64,000 nucleotides of DNA from Thermococcus indicus (GTDB lineage: Archaea; Methanobacteriota_B; Thermococci; Thermococcales; Thermococcaceae): NCBI RefSeq assembly GCF_006274605.1, contig NZ_CP040846.1, positions 124,001 through 188,000 of the forward strand. The letters are read 5' to 3'. The notes below the pieces were generated by a model. The model did not search any database. It had not been told where the DNA came from and was given only the letters and a program-made list of their open reading frames with translations. Below, in pieces: positions 2,646 through 34,221 of this stretch. Position 1 is the first letter of the stretch. Each line of letters opens with the position of its first letter. The translations under genes were made by a program, and so were the position numbers.

Positions 2646-3458
2646 TCAGAGGCTGGCCAGCCAGTCCGGGTCGATGTTCACCCTCTTTTCTTCCCATGCC
2701 CTGAGCGCCCGGTACATAGCCGCCCCGGCGATGGCTGAGAGAACGCTCGCGAGGCCCGTTATGAGGCCATCAATCAGGCCCGCCAGCAGGGCCCCGGTGA
2801 ATCCTCTGGCAAAGAGCGAAGTCATGAAAACAAGCCCCCCTGCCGCGGCCCCGATGCCAACGATAACTGCCCCCATAAGTGCCCCGAATACGAAAACCTC
2901 CCTGGCGTTGTCCAGGGCGGTTTCGATTATTCTCAGCCCTTCCCCGAAATCTTTGGTCCATATGTACGCTGGAATCATCATGGTGATTATCCCAATCAGG
3001 AAGATCGCGGGGGGCAGTCCGAGCAGTCCCGCTATCACGTACCTCGTTGTTCCGGAGAGGGCGTAGTGAGCCAGTATTGCGGGGAAGAGCATGAGGCCAC
3101 CGACTATGAGGATCACGATTCCGTAAACGATGCCCACCAGGAGGACCATTATTCCCCCTGCCACGGACTCCCTTATGAGGGCCGGCTCCTCGAAGGGTAT
3201 GCCCTTTTTGTGGTGGTAGAATGCCCTGGTAGGGTAGTAGAGGACTGTGAGTCTGATTAGCAGGGCTATAAGGACGAGCAGAACCGCGATGCCGGCGTTG
3301 AAGTCTGGGCTGTACGCCACCAGCTCCACGTTTGAGTCGAGTCCGGAGATGGCCATGAGCGCACCGGCTATCCCCGACGCCGCAACGGGATACCTCCATA
3401 GCTTTTTGTCCTCGGAAATGGATGTAATGGCTTCCGTCAGTGCTTCCAACGCTTTCAT
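2646..3458 (-). CDS. Multi-pass membrane protein of unknown function
   Basis: A 270-residue protein with about six hydrophobic helices: one pair within residues 25-75, long ones at about 95-135, 150-175, 190-215 and 220-245. A soluble N-terminus (EALTEAITSISEDKKLWRYP) resembles DUF4013-type archaeal membrane proteins, but I do not recognise the family with certainty. The C-terminus is cytoplasmic-looking (RALRAWEEKRVNIDPDW). Convergent with mtaD with one base between the stops; the ATG is preceded by GGTG. No catalytic motif is visible. Confidence 0.75.
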   Translation of the reverse strand: MKALEALTEAITSISEDKKLWRYPVAASGIAGALMAISGLDSNVELVAYSPDFNAGIAVLLVLIALLIRLTVLYYPTRAFYHHKKGIPFEEPALIRESVAGGIMVLLVGIVYGIVILIVGGLMLFPAILAHYALSGTTRYVIAGLLGLPPAIFLIGIITMMIPAYIWTKDFGEGLRIIETALDNAREVFVFGALMGAVIVGIGAAAGGLVFMTSLFARGFTGALLAGLIDGLITGLASVLSAIAGAAMYRALRAWEEKRVNIDPDWLASL

Positions 3459-20671: not shown

Positions 20672-20716
20672 AAAACTTTTTTAAGTTTTCAATCTTTAAC
20701 CCTATTGGGTGGTGTC

Positions 20717-21055
20717 ATGAGGCGGGCGCGTTCGGTGGTCGTCTTCCTGCTGATTCTCTCCGTTGTAACGGCCGGCTGTCTCGACAACAACTTCGTTTAC
20801 GCCAGGGGAAAGAGCGTTCCGGCGGGGGAGAGCAGGGAGTGGCCGTTTAAAGGCCCAGCTAACCTGACCGTGAAGATCAGCTCCAGCGTCCCGGTGGAGG
20901 TGAAGGTGGTCTCCTCCGACGGGATCGTGCTGAGGGACTTTGGAACCGTCAGGGAAGTAAACGCGGTCGTTGAGCTTCCGGGGGGCAGGTGGAAAGTTGT
21001 GGTGAGGAACCCCGGCAACGAGACTGCGGTCATCGACGTGACACTGAAGACCTGA
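20717..21055 (+). CDS. Small predicted lipoprotein
   Basis: 112 residues from ATG 20717 (GGGTGGT upstream). N-terminal basic-hydrophobic signal ends in VTAGC, a lipobox-like site (Cys about residue 20). The mature domain of some 90 residues is beta-rich (NLTVKISSSVPVEVKVV, WKVVVRNPGNETAVIDVTL) like small carbohydrate- or substrate-contact modules. Likely anchored on the outer face of the membrane. Unknown family; own promoter. Confidence 0.75.
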   Translation: MRRARSVVVFLLILSVVTAGCLDNNFVYARGKSVPAGESREWPFKGPANLTVKISSSVPVEVKVVSSDGIVLRDFGTVREVNAVVELPGGRWKVVVRNPGNETAVIDVTLKT

Positions 21056-23697: not shown

Positions 23698-24855
<1,158 letters not shown>

Positions 24856-25013
24856 TCATATAACTTGGTTATTGAGTATCAAAATGATTTTATTCCATTG
24901 TATGTTACGACATTTTATCTACTAGTCAAAAGTTCATTTATCGAACTGTTAATTTCAATCAACGTAACTCTTATAAGTTTGTGATGTTACAGAACCATAC
25001 GCGGTGAATGTGT

Positions 25014-26480
25014 ATGGGCGGCGATGGATTTGTTAGTTCATTATATCTTGACAAGGTACTCGATGAGTACATTCTGTTCTCGCCAAAGACGCTCCACCTT
25101 ATCCGGCTAGATGCTGAGAGCTATGAACTGCTTGATTCCATCAGAAAGCGCGGAGTCGAAGAGGGCGTTAGTGAGTTCTTGAAAAAACACCCTGAAATCA
25201 GCCCTCAAGATGTGGACCGGGTGATAGAAGGCCTGAAGGCCTTAAGCGCGGTTCCTCCTTACTTGAGCGTGGACTCTAAATCGTCCGAGGTTGTTCCAAC
25301 TTCCGTTGCCCTCTACCTGACGAGTGCGTGTAACTTTAAATGCGTGTATTGTTATGAGCAGCAGCACGGGATTCCGCTGTTTATGATACGTGATGAAAAT
25401 GATGCAGATGGCATAATTGAGTTTTTGCTTTCCAGGGGGTCATCCAAACTGTCAGTTGGTTTCTTCGGGGGTGAGCCTCTCCTGAACTTCCGCATGCTCA
25501 GATACATTGCCGAGACTCTTTCGCGGAGGGCAGCTTCCCGGGGGAAGACCGTTAATTTCAGCATCACCACAAACGGTTACTTGATAACGCCTTCTGTTGT
25601 GGATTTCTTCAAAAGATTCCGCTTTAACGTCGTTCTCAGCATGGACGGACCCAGGGAGATACAGAATCACAACAGGCCCACGAAAACTGGGGATCCAACG
25701 TTTGACGTTGTAATGAAAAACCTCCGGCTCCTGCTTACCAGTGGTGTTCCTGTGACTGTGAGGGCAACGATACTTCCGGAGCAGATTGACAGGTATTTTG
25801 AAATTTTTAGATTTTTTGTGGAAAACGGCGTTAGGAGTGTTCACATTGAGCCCGCATCTATCGGCTCAGATAGTTTCCGCGAGATAGTCTCACCACTGAA
25901 GGAACAACTGAAGCTCATTGCCGAGTACGAACTCGAGCACATCGAGGAGACGGAGATGTTTAGGTACTCCCACTTCAGGAAGTACTTCACGATCCTCGCC
26001 TCAAGGCGTTCCCTTGTCTATCCTTGCGGCGCTGGCAGGAAACTTTTTGGTGTATCCTCGGACGGAAAGCTTTACCCATGTCAGAGGTTCGTGGGAATGG
26101 ACGAGTTCGTCGTGGGAGACGTTAGATCGGGTGTCAATGTTGATTCAGAGGTGATACAAAAGATACTTCGCAATCCTCCGAGGGAACCGTGCAACCACTG
26201 CTGGGCCTATCCATTGTGCAGGGGAGGCTGTTACTACATAAACTACATGTATTCTGGGGACATTCACAAACCTGATCCCTATTACTGCGAGTTCATTAGA
26301 GAGCTTATACGGCTTTCCATGTGGCTTTACGTCAAGGTTAAGAGAAATCACCCTGTGATTTTCGAGAAGATGTTGAAATCACTTGATTACTACTCACCCC
26401 CTTCCGGGGTGAGCGAGGCTTCGGCCGATGAGTCAAAAATTAAAAAGGAGGTGGGTGAAGTATGGAGTTCGAGGTCGTGA
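25014..26480 (+). CDS. SPASM-type radical SAM peptide maturase
   Basis: 488 residues from ATG 25014 (GGTGA upstream; TATA CTTATAAG near 24971). Residues 1-85 look like a PqqD-type peptide-recognition winged helix (FSPKTLHLIRLDAESYELLD). The radical SAM core has C106-x3-C110-x2-C113 (CNFKCVYC), GGEPLL, ITTNGYL and the MDGP motif common in peptide-modifying enzymes. The C-terminal SPASM region has CGAGRKLFGVSSDGKLYPCQ, then PCNHCWAYPLCRGGC and a final CEF, for two auxiliary 4Fe-4S clusters. It overlaps the small peptide gene by 19 bases. By analogy with PapB/QhpD-type enzymes it probably forms thioether bonds between Cys and acidic residues of that peptide. Confidence 0.9.
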   Translation: MGGDGFVSSLYLDKVLDEYILFSPKTLHLIRLDAESYELLDSIRKRGVEEGVSEFLKKHPEISPQDVDRVIEGLKALSAVPPYLSVDSKSSEVVPTSVALYLTSACNFKCVYCYEQQHGIPLFMIRDENDADGIIEFLLSRGSSKLSVGFFGGEPLLNFRMLRYIAETLSRRAASRGKTVNFSITTNGYLITPSVVDFFKRFRFNVVLSMDGPREIQNHNRPTKTGDPTFDVVMKNLRLLLTSGVPVTVRATILPEQIDRYFEIFRFFVENGVRSVHIEPASIGSDSFREIVSPLKEQLKLIAEYELEHIEETEMFRYSHFRKYFTILASRRSLVYPCGAGRKLFGVSSDGKLYPCQRFVGMDEFVVGDVRSGVNVDSEVIQKILRNPPREPCNHCWAYPLCRGGCYYINYMYSGDIHKPDPYYCEFIRELIRLSMWLYVKVKRNHPVIFEKMLKSLDYYSPPSGVSEASADESKIKKEVGEVWSSRS

Positions 26481-26614
26481 ACCCCGGAGACAAGACCAAG
26501 ATCTGGATCGGGCCCTGCGGAGTTCTTGACCAGGGCGGCTGCCCGTTCCCGGAGGACTGGGAGTGCTGGTGGCCGGAGGACATATGCTATGGACCTGAGG
26601 TGACTTCCGTCTGA
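26462..26614 (+). CDS. Putative RiPP precursor with four Cys-x3-Asp/Glu motifs
   Basis: 50 residues, ATG 26462 with a perfect GGAGGTG (26447-26453) eight bases upstream inside the end of the maturase gene. Residues 1-18 form a leader-like part. Then come C19-GVL-D23, C27-PFP-E31, C35-WWP-E39 and C42-YGP-E46: every Cys is followed four residues later by an acidic residue. CX3D/E is the crosslinking unit of freyrasin (PapA), where PapB joins Cys sulfur to Asp/Glu side-chain carbon. The regular spacing, the tight link to a SPASM radical SAM enzyme and the short length make a ranthipeptide-like natural product likely. Mature form and function are unknown. Confidence 0.75.
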   Translation: MEFEVVNPGDKTKIWIGPCGVLDQGGCPFPEDWECWWPEDICYGPEVTSV

Positions 26615-26664
26615 CTTTGTGAGTTTTCACATTTTAAATTTTTCAGAGGTTGCGGGGGGATTAG

Positions 26665-27777
26665 ATGGGAGTTCCAGTAAGAACTGTCTCCAGATTGGTG
26701 GCCATATACTTGAGTGTTCTTCTTGTCATTGTTATAGTGGCAGGCGCCACTTCCAATAAAATTATGTGGGATCATGTTCATGAGGCTGTTCTTAACATTC
26801 AGAGCTTTAATCCGTATCTTTACTCGGAGCTCGAGAGAAATGCCACTAGTGAGGGATTGACCGTGGAGGAGTACTATTACAAGCTCATCGCCGGGTCTAA
26901 CTCTAATACTATGAATCTCGAAGAGTTCATGTTCTCTGGTAGTGATGGTGAGTATTACTATCGTCTCCTGAAAGAATCTGGAGGTATTCGAACCGACAAC
27001 CTTCTCCTCATGGGGATAGACCTCCTCAGGAAGAGCTTTGACTACTACCGCGAGAACCCCAAGTACGACTTCGCCCACGTCATAAAGGTGACCCTCGCCG
27101 TCATGGGGCTGGCCATGGTCTTGACCCTTCTCCTGGGTCTCTTCCTTGGCTTCAGGCTGGCGAACGGTAGGTTCCTTGGAACGGTTGAGGGCCTGGCGCG
27201 CTTCTTCAACGGTCTTCCCTCCTGGTGGATTGGTGCGGTTCTGATAGCGGTCTTCGCGGTCGAGCTGGGGGTTTTTCCGATAGCCGGCCTGAGGAGCACT
27301 CCACCAAAGGAGGGCTTTGGGGACTTCATCGACATCCTCTGGCACCTCATCCTCCCGGTTTCCACGCTGGTCTTCGTCTACGTCTGGGAGTTCGTGGTCA
27401 CGGTGGCCCACGAGGTGAGGAACGAACTTGGAAAGCCCTACGTCCTCACCGAGAGGGCCAAGGGCCTTCCCGAGGGGCTGATATACAGGAAGCACGTCCT
27501 CCGGAACGTTTCCATCGTCCTGAGTTCTTTCACGGTCCAGAAGTTCGTGGAGATGTTCACGGATTACATAGTCATCGACGTCCTCTTCGGCCTCGGCGGT
27601 CTTGGAACCCTCCTAAGGGCCAGCTTCGTCAGGACCATAGTCCCGGCCATAGGCGTGGTGGTGCGCTTCGACTACCGCCTCTTCTTCGTCGTAACGCTGT
27701 CGATAGCCACCATAACGTTCCTCTTCTCCCTCCTGCTCGAACTGACCAAGGGACTGCTCGATCCGAGGGTGAGCTGA
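26665..27777 (+). CDS. Dpp/Opp-type ABC transporter permease (DppB-like)
   Basis: 370 residues. N-terminal helix (residues 8-28), then a large extracytoplasmic domain of about 95 residues, then five helices. The BPD_transp_1 region includes HVIKVTLAVMGLAMVLTLLL and the EAA-type cytoplasmic loop with ERAKGLPEGLIYRKHVLRN, and the LFGLGGLGTLL segment typical of DppB. ATG follows GGGGGGATTAG, 50 bases after the peptide gene, so it is probably cotranscribed. No ATPase or binding protein is nearby; it may use a shared ATPase. A role in moving the modified peptide is inference. Confidence 0.85.
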   Translation: MGVPVRTVSRLVAIYLSVLLVIVIVAGATSNKIMWDHVHEAVLNIQSFNPYLYSELERNATSEGLTVEEYYYKLIAGSNSNTMNLEEFMFSGSDGEYYYRLLKESGGIRTDNLLLMGIDLLRKSFDYYRENPKYDFAHVIKVTLAVMGLAMVLTLLLGLFLGFRLANGRFLGTVEGLARFFNGLPSWWIGAVLIAVFAVELGVFPIAGLRSTPPKEGFGDFIDILWHLILPVSTLVFVYVWEFVVTVAHEVRNELGKPYVLTERAKGLPEGLIYRKHVLRNVSIVLSSFTVQKFVEMFTDYIVIDVLFGLGGLGTLLRASFVRTIVPAIGVVVRFDYRLFFVVTLSIATITFLFSLLLELTKGLLDPRVS

Positions 27778-27778
27778 A

Positions 27779-29029
27779 ATGGGACGGAAAGCTGGAGTGG
27801 CGATACTCGTAATCTTCGCGCTCTTCGTGGCCTTCTCGAACGCGGGCGTGAGCGATGAGGACATTGCCAACTGGGAGAATCTTAACTACTGGAAGGACAA
27901 CCCGCGAATGGCATATCCCTCGTGGTTCGCCCTATTCGGCGACAGAACTCCCACGGTCTTCCTGGAGCCGTCGCTCGTTGAGGAGAACGGTTCCTCAGTT
28001 TACAGGTTTTCCTACGAACATGCCTACCACGACAAACCGAGCGACGTCAGGTTCTACGGCCTCCCCTACGGTGAGGAGGTTGAGATAAGCGTTCTGAGGC
28101 CGGACGGGATTAGAGTGCCCCTCTACGGCGGTATAGCGACCTCGAGCAACCTCAGCCTCAACACCAACATGCGCACGGGAGTTGTTTCTTCGCTTTCCGG
28201 CGTTCTCAATCTCAGCGAAGCTGGGTACGTTCTCTTCTCCGCCACCCAACTACTGTTCTCCCGCGACGGAAGTATGGCAACTCTCAACGGGGAGTACGTC
28301 TTTGAGGTTCGCATAGCTGGAAACGCCACGCCCTCCGTTGAAATCCTCGGAACCTGCTACGGTTTCCTCGGCACGGACTCCTACGGCAGGGACATGTGGG
28401 TCGGCTTCGTCAAGGGAATGAACAACACCCTCTACCTTGCATTCTTCACCACGGTGATAATAGTGGTCCTGGGGGTTCTTATAGGTCTCATCTCGGGCTA
28501 CGTTGGCGGTGCCCTTGGTGAGTTCATAACGTTCCTCCTGGAGGTTCTCGTCGCTTTGCCGATGCTCCCAATTCTGGTCGTCCTCGTCTGGCTGTTCTCC
28601 ACCCAGGGCTACGGCCAGCAGGTCAGGATAAACCCCGTCCTCTTCATGTTCCTCGTTGCCCTCCTCACCCTCGGGAAGTTCGCCAAGACGGTTAGAATGA
28701 TGACGATAAGGGAGAAGGTGAACGAGTACGTCAAAGCCGCGGTGAGCATGGGCGCCGGCACGCTCTGGGTCCTGAGGAGGCACATACTCCCGCCGGTCGG
28801 GGAGTTCTCCCTCAGGTACTCCACCATACTCCTGGCCAGGATAGTGGCGCTGGTTTCGGTGTTCGGGTTCTTCGGCCTGATTCCGGGCACAAACTGGGGG
28901 TCGTTCATGATAGAGGCCATGAACCAGGGGGCGCTCTACGGGGGCTACTGGTGGTGGATAGTGGCTCCCGGCCTCGCCATGGCGGTTCTGAGTGCCGGTC
29001 TGGCTTTCGTCTCCTCCGGCTCCGGTTAG
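27779..29029 (+). CDS. Dpp/Opp-type ABC transporter permease (DppC-like)
   Basis: 416 residues, starting one base after the DppB-like stop. One N-terminal helix, an extracytoplasmic domain of about 175 residues (beta-rich, unusually large), then the permease core from LGTDSYGRDMWVGFVKGMNN, the classic DppC entry motif, through LISGYVGG and the cytoplasmic EAA loop KAAVSMGAGTLWVLRRHILP. Pairs with the upstream permease as a heterodimer. Ends at a convergent GTPase gene with a zero-base gap. Confidence 0.85.
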   Translation: MGRKAGVAILVIFALFVAFSNAGVSDEDIANWENLNYWKDNPRMAYPSWFALFGDRTPTVFLEPSLVEENGSSVYRFSYEHAYHDKPSDVRFYGLPYGEEVEISVLRPDGIRVPLYGGIATSSNLSLNTNMRTGVVSSLSGVLNLSEAGYVLFSATQLLFSRDGSMATLNGEYVFEVRIAGNATPSVEILGTCYGFLGTDSYGRDMWVGFVKGMNNTLYLAFFTTVIIVVLGVLIGLISGYVGGALGEFITFLLEVLVALPMLPILVVLVWLFSTQGYGQQVRINPVLFMFLVALLTLGKFAKTVRMMTIREKVNEYVKAAVSMGAGTLWVLRRHILPPVGEFSLRYSTILLARIVALVSVFGFFGLIPGTNWGSFMIEAMNQGALYGGYWWWIVAPGLAMAVLSAGLAFVSSGSG

Positions 29030-30103
29030 CTACTCCAGTATAGCCACCACGCCCTTCCACTTCTTGCCGAAGCACTCGCTCGCCAGGACGTGCTTGCCGG
29101 TCAGCCGCTCCAGGAGCTTCGTTCCGCCGTCGCACTTCTTGAAGCCCGTAGCTATTCCCACGGTGAAGCCCTCTATCTCCCTTATCCCGACCCTCTTTCT
29201 GTTGTCGAGCTTCTTCCTCAGCTCGTCACCGTACCTCCAGAGTACCCTCCTCGGGTCCAGGAGGAGTTCCCGCTCAACTCCGTCGAGGATTTCCTCGAAG
29301 TCCCGGATAAATTCCTCTTCCCTTCTCTCCTCCTTTCCGAAGAGCGTAAAACGGCCGGTCTGCCACTCCCTGAGGAACCACCTTGCCGTCTCCTCCAGAT
29401 CGACCTCACCGCCGGCCTTTATGAGGCCCCTTTTTTCTCCTATCCTCCTGAGGATTTCCTCCTCGCCCTCAAACTCCTCGATGCCAAACTTCTCGGTGAG
29501 GGCTTCTTTCCTCGTATCCAGAATACGCCTGATGAGTTTGAGCGCCGGTTTGACGGGCTCGTCTATCTTGTCCGCTGGGAAGCCTCCCTTGATGACCAGC
29601 TCATCGAAGTCGTCTATCGGGATGACGCCCGGTGAATCTAAGAGCCATATCTTTTTGCTCAGCTTTATCAGCTGTTTACCCTTTGTGTAGCCGGGAATCG
29701 GGGCGGTTCCGACGGCTTTCTTTCCCTTCAGGGTGTTGATTATCGTGCTCTTGCCGACGTTGGGATAGCCGATGAGGGCCACCTTAACCTTTTCTCCCTC
29801 GTCCAAGAGCGGCCTGGCGAGCCTCTTTATCTCCCTCCTCAGTATTCCGGTTCCCTTCCTCTCGCGGGCGGAGATGAAAACCACCGGTATCTCGCTCTTT
29901 CTCTTGTACTCCTCGGCCCATTCTTTTGGTACCAGGTCCGCCTTGTTCATGACTATGAGGAGCGGCTTGCCCTCATCCAGGATGAGCCTCTCAAGCTTTC
30001 GGTTCCTTGTTCCTATGGGGTCACGGGCATCGACGACCTCGACGATAACGTCGGCCTCGTCAACTACCTCCCTCACCACTCTCCACGCCTTTCTCGCCTT
30101 CAT
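29030..30103 (-). CDS. Circularly permuted GTPase of the YlqF/RbgA family
   Basis: 357 residues. Motifs occur in permuted order: G4 MNKADLV (about residue 50), G5 VFISARERKG, then G1 GYPNVGKSTI (about 112) and G3 LLDSPGV. The N-terminal part (VVREVVDEADVIVEVVDARDP) and permutation define the YlqF/YawG/NOG group, which assist large ribosomal subunit assembly. Residues 170-357 form a mixed helical C-terminus. The interrupted TIGR04076-like gene upstream originally overlapped its start by about 44 bases. Confidence 0.92.
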   Translation of the reverse strand: MKARKAWRVVREVVDEADVIVEVVDARDPIGTRNRKLERLILDEGKPLLIVMNKADLVPKEWAEEYKRKSEIPVVFISARERKGTGILRREIKRLARPLLDEGEKVKVALIGYPNVGKSTIINTLKGKKAVGTAPIPGYTKGKQLIKLSKKIWLLDSPGVIPIDDFDELVIKGGFPADKIDEPVKPALKLIRRILDTRKEALTEKFGIEEFEGEEEILRRIGEKRGLIKAGGEVDLEETARWFLREWQTGRFTLFGKEERREEEFIRDFEEILDGVERELLLDPRRVLWRYGDELRKKLDNRKRVGIREIEGFTVGIATGFKKCDGGTKLLERLTGKHVLASECFGKKWKGVVAILE

Positions 30104-30246
30104 CTCTCACCACCGTTATCTCAAAGATTGCGGTGCCGCCGTCCGTGTACGGTGGCCCCGGGTCGAGGCACTGAACGTATGCCTTCTCACCCGTGCCCAG
30201 GCCTAGTTCACTCGGCTTAATACCCTTTCGCAGCGCAACTATGTAT
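30060..30246 (-). pseudogene. C-terminal fragment of a TIGR04076-like gene split by a tnpB element
   Basis: Encodes YIVALRKGIKPSELGLG, KAYVQCLDPGPPYTDGG and IFEITVVRDEG before a TGA at 30060-30062. The N-terminal part (31694-31839) ends ICTHAFASLLP. Removing 30247-31693 joins CC to A, giving the codon CCA and a continuous 110-residue ORF. TIGR04076 proteins are small Cys-containing proteins of unknown function. Confidence 0.8.
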
Positions 30247-30324
30247 GGGGTCTTCTCTACGTGAGTTTTTGTGTGCTCACGTGGAGATTCATCCCCCGAG
30301 TTACTGTGAGTGCCCGGACTTAGA

Positions 30325-30405
30325 CCGTCCCGCCCACTCTCCTTCTCTTCCAGTTCACTACGGCGGAACGGGTCGCCCGAACACCCGCAGGGCTCAACCA
30401 GCCCT
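30325..30405. other. G+C-rich structured segment in the left part of the tnpB element
   Basis: CCGTCCCGCC (30325-30334) pairs with GGCGGAACGG (30362-30371) except at one position, followed by GGGTCGCCC (30370-30378) and a perfect AGGGCT/AGCCCT hairpin (30389-30405). Composition contrasts with the A+T-rich tnpB. Could be a structured RNA of the element or remnant coding DNA; strand unknown. Confidence 0.35.
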
Positions 30406-30496
30406 CCACCTCGCCTCGCTCATCGACTTCACCGGGCTGGCCTCACAACCAAAAACTATTTAAGTAAGCAGGTATTTAAGAATTTCGGTGAATACA

Positions 30497-30658
30497 ATGG
30501 GAGTCATAACCGTGAAAATTCCGGACGAGCTGGAAGTTAAATTCCGAAAGAAAATCCTCGACGTTTACGGGGTCAAAAAAGGAGCCCTCGGAATGGCCAT
30601 AACGGAGGCTATTGAATTATGGCTCGAAAAACACGAAAAATCCGCCGAGCAGAAGTGA
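30497..30658 (+). CDS. Small ribbon-helix-helix-like protein of the tnpB element
   Basis: 53 residues (GVITVKIPDELEVKFRKKIL, then GALGMAITEAIELWLEKHE), the beta-strand plus two-helix pattern of CopG/Arc-type DNA-binding proteins. TATA-like TATTTAAG (about 30472-30479) and GGTGA precede ATG 30497. Overlaps tnpB by 40 bases, so the two are co-expressed; it may regulate the element. Confidence 0.7.
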   Translation: MGVITVKIPDELEVKFRKKILDVYGVKKGALGMAITEAIELWLEKHEKSAEQK

Positions 30659-31701
30659 ACTACATCACAATCAAAACAAAACTCGAACCAGTGGGACAGG
30701 AAGACTACCTGAAACTCGCTCTCCTGACTGAAAAATTCAAAAGGGCCGTCGAACTCGCAATAAGACTCCAGCTCAGGGGCATTAAAAAGAGCGAAGGCGT
30801 GAGGGAAGTTTCTCGGTTGATTCTCAACAACTGGTGGTATTCTGACAGTGCGTGGGATTATGCGAAAATGCTCCTCAAGGGAGCAAAACAAAACGGTGGA
30901 AATCCAAGGCACATTCACCTGAAATCAAAGTTCCTTATTAGCAAACCAAAGGAAAATGAGAAGGGAAACCGGAACGTGAGGATTGAGGGGTTGAAGGTTA
31001 GAATCCGCTCGAACGGTGAATGGCTGAACTTTAAGATGAAAACCACCGAGAAGTTTCTTCCAGTTCTTCTGGACGCTCAAAAGTTTAAATACGGTGCTCA
31101 GGTTGTCTTACGGAATGGGAAAGTTTACCTGCACGTTCAGGTGCCCTTTGAGGTTTATCTGGGACGCTACAGAAGAACAACCAACGGAAGACTTTACGCT
31201 GGTTTTGATTTGAACTCGGACAGGGTGAATATGGTTATTCTCGACGGAGATGGTATTATTCGGGACGTTAGGGTTAAGCACTTTCCAGAGGTTAATTCTC
31301 CGGGGTTTCCGAGGAAGAAGGCGAGGGATTTGAGGTTGAATGCTCTCGCTCGCCTTCTGGATTATGTGTTTTATCATGGTGTCAGAGTCGTGTTCTTTGA
31401 GGATTTGGGAAGGATTAAGAGAAAGAATGGGAAAGCTACAAGTTCGAGACGGGGGAATCGTAAGGCGTCGAATTTTGCGAAGAAGGAACTTCTTGAGCAT
31501 GGTGTTGTTATGGCGTTAAAGAGGGGTTTTAACGTTTATCTGGTTAATCCTGCTGGTTCTTCGAAGTTGGGGCGTGAAATTGCTCAATGGTTGGGTTTGG
31601 ACGTTCATTCTGCGTCAGCGTTTGTGGTTGGGTGGTGGGGAGTTATTTCCCTAAAAACTCACGAACACTCTCGAAAAAAGAACAGTTCTGGTAGGCAGTA
31701 G
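30619..31701 (+). CDS. tnpB: TnpB-family RuvC nuclease without zinc ribbon
   Basis: 360 residues; ATG 30619 with GGAGG ten bases upstream. RuvC triad appears intact: D197 (GFDLNSD), E261 (FFEDLG) and D328 (GLDVHSASA). The Cys4 zinc ribbon normally between the last two motifs is absent: NPAGSSKLGREIAQWLGLDVHS runs straight through. The last codons and TAG (31699-31701) come from the interrupted host gene, so the tail HSRKKNSSGRQ is partly junction-derived. TnpB proteins are RNA-guided nucleases that help keep such elements in place; activity of this form is untested. Confidence 0.8.
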   Translation: MARKTRKIRRAEVNYITIKTKLEPVGQEDYLKLALLTEKFKRAVELAIRLQLRGIKKSEGVREVSRLILNNWWYSDSAWDYAKMLLKGAKQNGGNPRHIHLKSKFLISKPKENEKGNRNVRIEGLKVRIRSNGEWLNFKMKTTEKFLPVLLDAQKFKYGAQVVLRNGKVYLHVQVPFEVYLGRYRRTTNGRLYAGFDLNSDRVNMVILDGDGIIRDVRVKHFPEVNSPGFPRKKARDLRLNALARLLDYVFYHGVRVVFFEDLGRIKRKNGKATSSRRGNRKASNFAKKELLEHGVVMALKRGFNVYLVNPAGSSKLGREIAQWLGLDVHSASAFVVGWWGVISLKTHEHSRKKNSSGRQ

Positions 31702-31839: not shown

Positions 31840-31928
31840 ACACTCACCGAAACCTAAATAAAGATTGAAGTTCAAAAAACTATCCGGCATGAGAAACTGT
31901 TATGATAACGTTGATGGTGGTGCTCAAC

Positions 31929-33359
31929 GTGTCCGAGGATATCGAGGCGAAGATTCGCCGTTTGAGGGAGCTGGGTAAAGCCAGCGCCGAACCAGAGCCC
32001 CCTGTGGCCCCCAAACCCGTCCCTGCTAAAAAACCTTCCCGCAGACCGCGCTCGGTGGGTAGTATCCGCGAGAAGGAGAGGAGGAAGCGGATCCTGATAG
32101 GAGTTTCTATCGTGATAATCGTGCTGATTCTAACGTCGGTTGGCGCCTACGTTTATCTCCAGAACCGTGCCACCGAGGAACTTACCAACGCCAGAAACAA
32201 AAAGCTGGCCGAGGTTAACCTGTACTTCAAGCCCGACATATTCAACAATACCAACTGCTCCCCCAAAGCCAACGCTATCAAATCCCAGCTCCTCAACCAG
32301 ATACTTCACGCCAAATCCGTTGATGAGCTCAATGCCATTGACGTTAAGGGGAACTACGATATTGCGTTGCGTGAGTACAATTCGTGTATCGATGAACTTC
32401 ACAGGCTGGAGCTGGAGAGGCAGCTGAACAGGACAAAGGAGCAGAAATTAAAACTCCTTGAGCTTGAGTTCCAGCCACTTCTCTCGATGCCCCTCCCGGA
32501 TGACATCCGCACCAAAACCGTAACGTACATGAACGACCTTAAGGAGCGCGTCATGTCCGCCACAAGCGTTGATGAGGTCAACTCCATAAAGGCCGACCCG
32601 TACCTCCTGGAGGTGTGGAGGGACTACTACTACTGGCGCATCGACGCCCTCCCCGGACAGGATGTGATACTTGAGTACGGCGACTCCAAGAAGATGGTCA
32701 CCAAGGCCGATGCCAAGGCTGTGCTGGGGGGCATCATGGACTATAGAGAGCTCATGAAGTACAACGTCGTGAAGGTTGAGTGGGTGGAGATGTCCCTTGT
32801 CCTCCCCAAGAGGAACATAAACGGTGCGTTCCTTTCGCCGGGTGACAGAATAAAACTTTTTATCCAGGGTCAGAACACAACGGCGGTTGACGGGTACTTT
32901 GAGCTTGTCCTTCTGCCTGTTCAGTCGGGTTCGATATCGGTTAGTGAGTCCCAGAGTCAGTCAAGTTCCTCCTCCACTTCCTCATCGACCACCTACAGTG
33001 AGAGCCACTCCTCATCCGCTTCCCCGGGTGGAGCCTCGATATCCGACAGCAGCAGTGCGAGTGACTCCGTCACCAACAGCCAGTCGGTGAGTCAGAGTTC
33101 GTCCGGCAGCTACTCCTACAGCGTGAACCTGGCGGAGATACTCAAAGCGATAGCCGCCGGTAAGATACAGGCCAGCGAGGAGGTTAGGCAGCAGCTCAGC
33201 GCGTACGGATGGAAGGTTCTTGACCTCGAGAAGGACACGTCATTGGAGGCTATTGACCACAACACCCAGCTGCTCGTTATAGTCAAGGTTCCCTCGATAT
33301 TCGTCCCGGACGTGCTGGCCAACCAGAACTCCCTTTACCTTGTCAGGGTATCAACGTGA
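31929..33359 (+). CDS. DUF515-family membrane-anchored protein of the KlbA cluster
   Basis: 476 residues from GTG 31929 (GGTGGTG six bases upstream; ATG 31902 is an alternative). A cytosolic Pro/Lys/Arg-rich start, one membrane helix near residues 55-78 (ILIGVSIVIIVLILTSVGAY), then a helical external region. A Ser-rich low-complexity tract at about 335-400 (mostly S, T, G) precedes a C-terminal domain. DUF515 genes stand beside KlbA/TadA-like ATPases in Thermococcales, which suggests a part in a pilus or secretion machine. The Ser tract may be a flexible or glycosylated spacer. Confidence 0.8.
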   Translation: MSEDIEAKIRRLRELGKASAEPEPPVAPKPVPAKKPSRRPRSVGSIREKERRKRILIGVSIVIIVLILTSVGAYVYLQNRATEELTNARNKKLAEVNLYFKPDIFNNTNCSPKANAIKSQLLNQILHAKSVDELNAIDVKGNYDIALREYNSCIDELHRLELERQLNRTKEQKLKLLELEFQPLLSMPLPDDIRTKTVTYMNDLKERVMSATSVDEVNSIKADPYLLEVWRDYYYWRIDALPGQDVILEYGDSKKMVTKADAKAVLGGIMDYRELMKYNVVKVEWVEMSLVLPKRNINGAFLSPGDRIKLFIQGQNTTAVDGYFELVLLPVQSGSISVSESQSQSSSSSTSSSTTYSESHSSSASPGGASISDSSSASDSVTNSQSVSQSSSGSYSYSVNLAEILKAIAAGKIQASEEVRQQLSAYGWKVLDLEKDTSLEAIDHNTQLLVIVKVPSIFVPDVLANQNSLYLVRVST

Positions 33360-33369
33360 GGTGATGGCC

Positions 33370-34221
33370 GTGAAACGCCCCGCGGCATTTCTTTTACTTT
33401 TCATTTCGTTATTTGCGGCTCTGCCCGGTCACTACCAGGTGCAGGCCGCAGGCACACTCCAGGGTGATGTTCTAATAAACCTTAACGTTACCCTTGTGAA
33501 CACCGCACCGTTTCCCAAGTTCCTGGTTCTCAATCCCGCGTACAATATAACCGTTTACCGGCGCGGAAACAACGAGACGAACCTCGGGTTCTACATAGAT
33601 AAGGGGATGAACCTTAACTACAACCCTGGCATATGGATTATGCCGTACGAAACCGTTGTGATAAACGTCAGGGTCTCCAAAACCGAGTCATACTCCCTCC
33701 CGTCCGTTACGTGTGGGGGAACCGATGGTACCTCCATCGGCTGCGGTGTTGTTGTGCCCCCTCTCGTCAACTCGCCATCCCAGCTCTCAGCGCTCTCAAT
33801 GTTCCCACTCGTCGATGGACACATCCGTATTCTGGAGTACCGGGGAGTCGTTAAGTTCAACGTGTACTCGGGGGATGCGGGTACGTTCAAGAAGTTCTTT
33901 GCCGTTACCGTCCCCGTTGTGTTCGTTGATGGGAGGATGTACGACTTCACTCCGAACTACACAATGGACTACAGCGAGTACGTGGACGCACTTTTTGAAT
34001 ACACTGGAACAGGGAGGCGCTCTGTGAACGTAGAAAACAGCGTTCAGATGCCGCAGGGGATGTTCCAGCTCACTCCAACGCTTCTTACCGGTGTCAGTGT
34101 TGGAATGCCGGGTCGGGTTCTCCCGTCGAATGAATCCTATGAGTTGCCCCTGTGGGTCGTCACAACGGGAACCGGCGTGGAGATAACCTACCGTGTTGAA
34201 TGGAGCGCGGGGGGGCTGTAA
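33370..34221 (+). CDS. Secreted beta-rich protein of the KlbA cluster
   Basis: 283 residues from GTG 33370 (GAGGTGA upstream, overlapping the DUF515 stop). Signal peptide KRPAAFLLLFISLFAALPGHYQVQA. The rest is beta-strand rich with many N-x-S/T sites (NVTLVNTAP, YNITVYRR, NETNLG, NYTMDYS) and a possible disulfide pair in TCGGTDGTSIGC. No membrane anchor at the C-terminus. Unknown family; position suggests a surface or extracytoplasmic component of the secretion/pilus apparatus. Confidence 0.75.
   Translation: MKRPAAFLLLFISLFAALPGHYQVQAAGTLQGDVLINLNVTLVNTAPFPKFLVLNPAYNITVYRRGNNETNLGFYIDKGMNLNYNPGIWIMPYETVVINVRVSKTESYSLPSVTCGGTDGTSIGCGVVVPPLVNSPSQLSALSMFPLVDGHIRILEYRGVVKFNVYSGDAGTFKKFFAVTVPVVFVDGRMYDFTPNYTMDYSEYVDALFEYTGTGRRSVNVENSVQMPQGMFQLTPTLLTGVSVGMPGRVLPSNESYELPLWVVTTGTGVEITYRVEWSAGGL

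Follow-up and report, generated by a model that had tools for sequence, protein, structure and literature searches.

Which product is made from a small cysteine-rich gene overlapping a radical SAM gene in Thermococcus indicus, and do the two permeases encoded downstream belong to the same system? These questions are raised by a locus in the window, i.e., the whole stretch of 64,000 nucleotides that was analysed (C1:124001-188000 of the 2.23-Mb genome). The locus is likely to be a ranthipeptide-type RiPP cassette, making a peptide with Cys-Asp/Glu thioethers. This reading starts from directly observed genes, their conservation, family and fold relationships, a register of cysteines and acidic residues, and genomes that retain the permeases alone; the bond chemistry and the ring pattern are predicted from family and pattern.

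Layout of the locus

The features of the locus are as follows (G numbers denote genomes used for comparison).

24970..24977, + strand: putative TATA-like box (CTTATAAG) 5′ of the maturase gene, read directly from the sequence
25014..26480, + strand: SPASM radical SAM peptide maturase, 488 aa, assigned by family, domain, model and alignment evidence
26447..26453, + strand: ribosome-binding site GGAGGTG of the peptide gene, 8 nt before the peptide ATG
26462..26614, + strand: gene of the 50-aa precursor peptide, overlapping the maturase gene by 19 nt
26590..26988, + strand: mosaic (replaced) tract, divergent from G016/G017 between near-identical flanks
26665..27777, + strand: DppB/OppB-type permease (permease 1); PF00528 E 1.1e-18, Opp4B 4.5e-22
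27779..29029, + strand: DppC/OppC-type permease (permease 2); PF00528 E 2.9e-13, Opp4C 4.1e-31

The overlap of a SPASM radical SAM gene with a 50-residue gene preceded by a good ribosome-binding site, already described in the initial annotation, is thus borne out, and the GGAGGT of the peptide gene is conserved in four genomes. The maturase open reading frame spans 25008-26480; the ATG at 25014 is the preferred start because a GGTGA motif at 25003-25007 is well spaced only relative to this codon and because the G018 ortholog begins there. The AT-rich stretch around the TATA-like box can still be made out in G017 and in two genomes with maturase remnants, G026 and G023. Permease 1 begins 51 nt after the peptide stop codon. 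No protease or exporter genes are encoded beside the window cassette, an Rfam scan of 24000-31000 gave no match, and the RNA fold around the peptide start is not significant (z -1.0). Scans for bacterial-type promoters and terminators, the models of which are not applicable to archaea, returned results near chance.

The maturase

Assignment of the enzyme to the radical SAM proteins follows from a match to PF04055 (74.9 bits against a Pfam cut-off of 29.5) and from a CX3CX2C core (CNFKCVYC, 25329-25352), the cysteines of which are invariant in an alignment of 18 homologs. The same holds for all seven cysteines of the SPASM region at 26025-26288 (positions 340, 358, 395, 398, 404, 408 and 427, numbered from 25008), a set that corresponds to two auxiliary clusters; the SPASM domain PF13186 scores 22.4 against a Pfam cut-off of 21.5. 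The gene is under constraint (dN/dS 0.09-0.18).

Among NCBIfam models, the highest scores are those of QhpD (TIGR03906; 241.6 bits, curated cut-off 453) and PapB (NF047865; 238.3 bits, curated cut-off 340), followed by the nif11 and SCIFF maturases (TIGR03974 for the latter; 175.5 bits, cut-off 425). CefB reaches 134.8 against a cut-off of 600. All of these scores lie under the cut-offs, and the enzyme is accordingly not assigned to the PapB, QhpD, SCIFF or CefA/CefB families, yet the PapB, QhpD, nif11 and SCIFF maturase models match every one of the 18 homologs. Identity to a plasmid-borne QhpD is 28-30% over ~90% of the length. In a tree built with QhpD and further bacterial relatives but no PapB sequence, branches are long, and the order of the Thermococcal clades, QhpD and the enzyme of G113, a genome from another family of the same class, is not fixed. 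The maturase is accordingly best described as a relative of the QhpD and PapB families rather than as a proven member of either. In the maturase tree, an enzyme from a Thermococcus nautili plasmid groups among sequences of the same genus. A scan of genome contigs for the maturase revealed distant relatives only (20-31% identity), and nothing close was found in viral contigs.

An AlphaFold2 model of the enzyme (pLDDT 79.6) has as its best PDB match CteB (5wgg; Foldseek E 4e-27, TM (target) 0.82, 461 columns), an alignment of essentially full length, and CteB is also the closest solved structure by sequence. In the model, the N-terminus (~residues 5-85) is RRE-like, with strands at 13-17, 20-25 and 30-34 and helices within 36-80. 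Pfam PqqD gives E 0.17, below its cut-off; a leader-binding RRE region at the maturase N-terminus is predicted from the model.

The precursor peptide and its orthologs

The 50-aa peptide, MEFEVVNPGDKTKIWIGPCGVLDQGGCPFPEDWECWWPEDICYGPEVTSV, appears to comprise a leader (~residues 1-13), a spacer (14-18) and a core that begins at Cys19 and consists of four in-line C-x3-D/E units. Its cysteines lie at 19, 27, 35 and 42, with spacings of 8, 8 and 7 and no CxxC knuckles, and Asp, Glu, Glu and Glu at 23, 31, 39 and 46 occupy position +4 of every cysteine, as had been noticed initially. Because the four pairs (19-23, 27-31, 35-39 and 42-46) follow one another without overlap, the rings expected from them would be in-line, and the earlier description of them as nested has to be given up. 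When the cysteines were held fixed and the other residues shuffled, four acids at +4 arose in 0.14-0.17% of shuffles, and four acids at any common offset from 1 to 6 in 0.8-1.0%. The register is thus modest evidence by itself; it becomes solid given its conservation in three other genomes and in the paralog peptides described below.

The peptide is present at the same chromosomal slot in G017, G016 and G018, next to maturases that are 99, 98 and 84% identical, respectively, to that of the window. All four cysteines are kept in these genomes, and leader residues 1-13 are conserved with a single change, in G018, where spacer residues 14-17 are replaced. The only core acid lost is Glu31, which is Lys in G018; there, Asp32 at +5 is retained. 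The peptide dN/dS is below 1. A conserved peptide in a conserved neighbourhood, asked for at the outset, was therefore found, with the Cys-acid pattern intact save for this one position. Further weak peptide matches (E 0.01-0.5) were left out of the homolog count. Pfam and NCBIfam scans assigned the window peptide to no family, and the CefA model did not match peptides of the window type; a weak DUF5981 match (E 0.054) was attributed to Cys composition and discarded.

The proposal that three of the crosslinks run through Glu fares less well. Glu does stand at +4 in three motifs; its role as acceptor is doubtful because Glu31 is replaced by Lys in G018 with Asp32 kept, and because the acid in the paralog peptides is nearly always Asp. 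The Asp at +5 may instead serve as acceptor in motifs 2 and 3.

Paralogous maturases and their peptides

A second maturase clade (clade 2), ~40% identical to the window maturase, has one copy in the same genome (C1:38144-39520). In nine genomes, clade-2 maturases are directly followed by one to three tandem Cys/Asp peptides (~18 peptides) that share the leader M-F-[KR]-[KR]-L-[NTG], a few of them with a short N-terminal extension before it, and that consist of tandem C-x2-D and C-x3-D units with 5 to 8 cysteines. Among the 103 cysteines of 16 distinct peptides, 45% have an Asp at +3 and 41% have one at +4 (z 5.9 and 5.5 versus shuffles, values that overstate independence because the peptides share ancestry). 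Asp is depleted at +1, +2 and +6; it is also common at -2, as follows from the tandem arrangement of the units. The acids at +3/+4 of the paralog peptides comprise 88 Asp versus 5 Glu. Some clade-2 peptides score weakly with CefA (22.3 bits at best versus a cut-off of 30), and clade-2 loci have ABC-2-type transporter genes of their own.

A third clade, 30-35% identical and also represented on a T. nautili plasmid, is accompanied by short peptides with the pattern M-R-A-[LM]...C-x4-D-x2-C-E and by an adjoining MFS-type transporter. In G113, a maturase likewise has peptides of the Cys/Asp pattern nearby, e.g., ...CPWVDICTIDFDPCAFIDICGIDYH. Immediately downstream of each maturase lies its own peptide type, and small adjacent precursors with regularly spaced cysteines and acceptor residues are common to the window, its three orthologs and the paralogs. 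No NCBIfam or Pfam model exceeded its cut-off for the paralog peptides, and the precursor genes of such maturases are easily missed in annotation. The precursor gene beside the T. nautili plasmid maturase is missing in the PLSDB gene table.

A lipoprotein gene at 20705-21055 was considered as a further component. Relatives of it adjoin clade-2 peptides, yet of the 36 genomes (out of 94) that carry it, most are without a maturase, and it was therefore left out of the system.

Mobility of the cassette

Cassettes related to that of the window are scattered through the family, and several relatives lack the peptide and the enzyme yet have the permeases. Between the window and G017/G016, dS is 0.05-0.06 for the maturase, 0.12-0.27 for permease 2, and 0.3-0.8 for a methyltransferase-like and a GTPase gene. 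The G+C content is 48.5% in the maturase gene and 33.5% in its upstream region versus 53.9% in the window. The low maturase dS compared with permease and flanks, together with the lower G+C content of maturase and upstream region, indicates that the cassette moves between strains.

The mosaic tract covers peptide residues 43-50, the intergenic gap and residues 1-108 of permease 1, including a 27-residue insertion. Identity to G016/G017 is 27-66% in the blocks of 26601-27000 versus 93-100% in the directly flanking blocks. No donor was found among 94 genomes, the best partial match reaching 71%. Since one exchange tract spans both, the peptide tail and the N-terminal, probably extracellular, part of the permease changed together; as a single event, this joint change may be due to chance.

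The permease pair

Both permeases contain PF00528, as in Dpp/Opp systems with their two permease subunits, and both carry a large N-terminal insertion that is probably extracellular. The genes adjoining the pair include neither a binding protein nor ATPases, i.e., no full Dpp/Opp operon is present; an apparent SBP-DppB-DppC operon lies elsewhere in the genome (about C1:265000-269900). At least eight genomes (G014, G039, G044, G033, G026, G042, G077 and G023) have the intact pair in the same slot with no maturase or peptide. These permease-only loci adjoin the methyltransferase-like gene; the GTPase gene lies alongside as well, except in G023. In the maturase-less genomes, dN/dS is 0.07-0.18 for both permeases (0.07-0.11 for permease 2), indicating purifying selection; OPT dN/dS values were left out on account of a shifted alignment. 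Maturase remnants were detected in three of the eight: in G023, about the first 79 codons, and in G026 and G077, a short, decayed 5′ part of the gene along with the AT-rich promoter stretch. No remnants are left in the remaining five (G014, G039, G044, G033 and G042). Several permease-only loci therefore once had the cassette. While the presence of a Dpp-type pair directly downstream of the peptide, as initially reported, is confirmed, its inclusion in the biosynthetic system has to be revised, given its persistence in maturase-less genomes and the lack of ATPase and binding protein; the peptide is not what the two permeases are dedicated to.

Is there a functional link at all? The cassette might have landed in front of a dipeptide-type permease with an unrelated, housekeeping function, a scenario that is somewhat doubtful but has points in its favour: in other genera, permease pairs of this family that are more diverged occur in unrelated surroundings, suggesting that the link to the peptide may be loose, and the low maturase dS points to a cassette that moves independently of permeases and flanks. 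It is countered by homologous pairs near several clade-2 maturases at other chromosomal sites, by the remnants that mark permease-only loci as former cassette carriers, and by the exchange tract that joins the peptide tail to the permease N-terminal domain. A dedicated exporter of the mature peptide that recruits a shared ATPase in trans would account for the 51-nt distance and for the related permeases near clade-2 maturases. This is unlikely, since an exporter maintained by purifying selection in maturase-less genomes would have no cargo and since clade-2 loci have their own ABC-2-type transporters. The same lack of cargo favours immunity or uptake over export, and the retention of the genes suggests, with a probability that we place a little below even, that the pair handles the mature peptide from outside, in self-protection or uptake. 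A more speculative and rather improbable extension is that thioether peptides mediate antagonism or signalling among hyperthermophilic archaea, such that strains that lose biosynthesis would keep orphan permeases for immunity or capture, with the tail of the peptide and the N-terminal domain of the permease being swapped as one recognition module.

Predicted maturation

The ribosome would make the 50-residue peptide, the leader of which (~residues 1-13) would be bound by the RRE-like N-terminal region of the maturase. The core [4Fe-4S] cluster and SAM would then give rise to a 5′-deoxyadenosyl radical that takes a hydrogen from a side-chain carbon, either Asp C-beta or Glu C-gamma. The thioether would be closed by the sulfur of a Cys, bound close to an auxiliary cluster, with two hydrogens lost per bridge. 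Up to four small in-line rings could be formed: Cys19-Asp23, Cys27 to Glu31 or Asp32, Cys35 to Glu39 or Asp40, and Cys42-Glu46. The mature product would exit the cell by a putative exporter, and the adjacent Dpp-type permeases would act on it from outside, in self-protection or uptake.

Ranthipeptide-type maturation is well supported as a prediction, and the initial view of a ranthipeptide-like system is sustained by the QhpD/PapB scores, the CteB fold, the conserved peptide and the Cys-Asp register of the paralogs. The product might instead be a sactipeptide, in which an enzyme of the same class joins Cys sulfur to the alpha carbons of non-acidic residues and the +4 acid is a recognition feature. 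Sactisynthases do belong among the SPASM maturases, and the model of the sactisynthase RumMC matches 4 of the 18 homologs at 1e-30 or better. This alternative is nonetheless improbable: family scores favour QhpD, PapB and SCIFF over sactisynthases, and the strong +3/+4 register of acids across the paralog peptides is that expected of an acceptor. Still less probable is a metal-binding or redox mini-protein, with the maturase modifying something else or one site only, since four conserved cysteines in a small peptide would fit such a role but the 8, 8, 7 spacing without CxxC knuckles, the range of 5 to 8 cysteines with acids in register in paralogs, unlike a fixed metal site, and the pairing of every maturase with its own peptide type would not.

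To our knowledge, the biological role is unknown for most ranthipeptides. Here, because biosynthesis was repeatedly lost while the permeases were kept, it is directly testable by simple gene deletions.

Comparison with known systems

Thioethers between Cys and Asp or Glu have been characterised in bacteria, in freyrasin and in quinohemoprotein amine dehydrogenase. If the ranthipeptide reading is true, a hyperthermophilic archaeal maturase family with fast-diversifying Cys/Asp precursors would offer naturally heat-stable cross-linking enzymes and peptides. Ranthipeptides are a class among the archaeal RiPPs predicted by bulk genome mining (PMC12144867); the text of that survey contains no Thermococcales, precursors of the window type or permease pattern. 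A literature search, with most subscription papers outside its reach, did not turn up any account of this Thermococcal family.

The bonds formed by QhpD and PapB connect the sulfur of Cys with C-beta of Asp or C-gamma of Glu (PMC11002830; PMC9413430). PapB tolerates Cys-Xn-Asp (n = 0-6) and Glu (PMC9413430); in the case of CteB, the residue linked to Cys is Thr (PMC11002830). As in PapA/PapB (freyrasin; NF047865, Paenibacillus), a SPASM maturase lies beside a peptide with tandem Cys-x3-acid units (Asp in PapA); unlike this pair, the window system is archaeal and has four motifs rather than six, its acids at +4 are mostly Glu with Asp at +5, and its enzyme scores 238 bits against the PapB cut-off of 340. 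With QhpD/QhpC (TIGR03906) it shares the top family score and a substrate gene directly downstream and overlapping, but its substrate is a small RiPP-like peptide instead of an enzyme subunit, and no amine dehydrogenase genes lie alongside. The CteB/SCIFF maturases (TIGR03974) provide the closest solved structure, full-length including the RRE region, whereas SCIFF peptides have six cysteines and the window peptide four. The Cys-every-fifth RiPP CefA/CefB (NF038108/NF038107) resembles the window system in its regular cysteine spacing, which in the window is 8, 8, 7 rather than every fifth residue; the CefB score is under its cut-off, and the window-type peptide does not match CefA. The system is thus a variant of an already known ranthipeptide kind, with an unusually testable pattern of gain and loss.

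Surroundings of the cassette

Three further features of the window lie outside the maturase, peptide and permease genes:

20705-21055, lipoprotein-like gene
30488-31701, TnpB-like gene belonging to an IS200/IS605-type element
31902-34221, gene for a DUF515 protein and its neighbour

The TnpB-like gene, which is preceded by a small ORF, has no homolog in the corresponding regions of G016, G017 and G018, the other genomes carrying maturase and peptide at this slot, and the element therefore probably represents a recent insertion near the cassette. The DUF515 gene and the one beside it match G016 almost exactly but share only 45-58% identity with G017 and G018; judged by these identities, they constitute a further mosaic stretch of the window. 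The lipoprotein-like gene is present in 36 of the 94 genomes compared, and its relatives lie directly 3′ of the peptides at loci of the second maturase clade (L128, L134, and L136).

Related loci elsewhere

The T. indicus genome harbors a second maturase outside the window (in the region C1:36644-41020, within locus L130), accompanied by two tandem Cys/Asp peptides, with ABC-2-type transporter genes and a permease pair homologous to that of the window nearby. A third permease of the window type (34% identical) is encoded at C1:257932-259137 (L153).

A clade-3 maturase resides on a Thermococcus nautili plasmid (L206, NZ_OX281346.1, 5911-7600) together with an MFS transporter and a 34-aa peptide, MRAMVKTRPKMEDDMLCSRIGDQWCEASDKAEII, missing from the gene listing. 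L179 and L180 hold maturases of a fourth type, with about 30% identity, where a 39-aa three-Cys peptide, MKIETLYTTKEEITSGCQVPPNFYGCPNLCITINDEESE, kept in two genomes, lies upstream (about 1308-1430). A related maturase is encoded in G113, which belongs to a different family within the same class; it is accompanied by two Cys/Asp peptides whose leaders contain 'IRLN' (L174, about 2861-3190).
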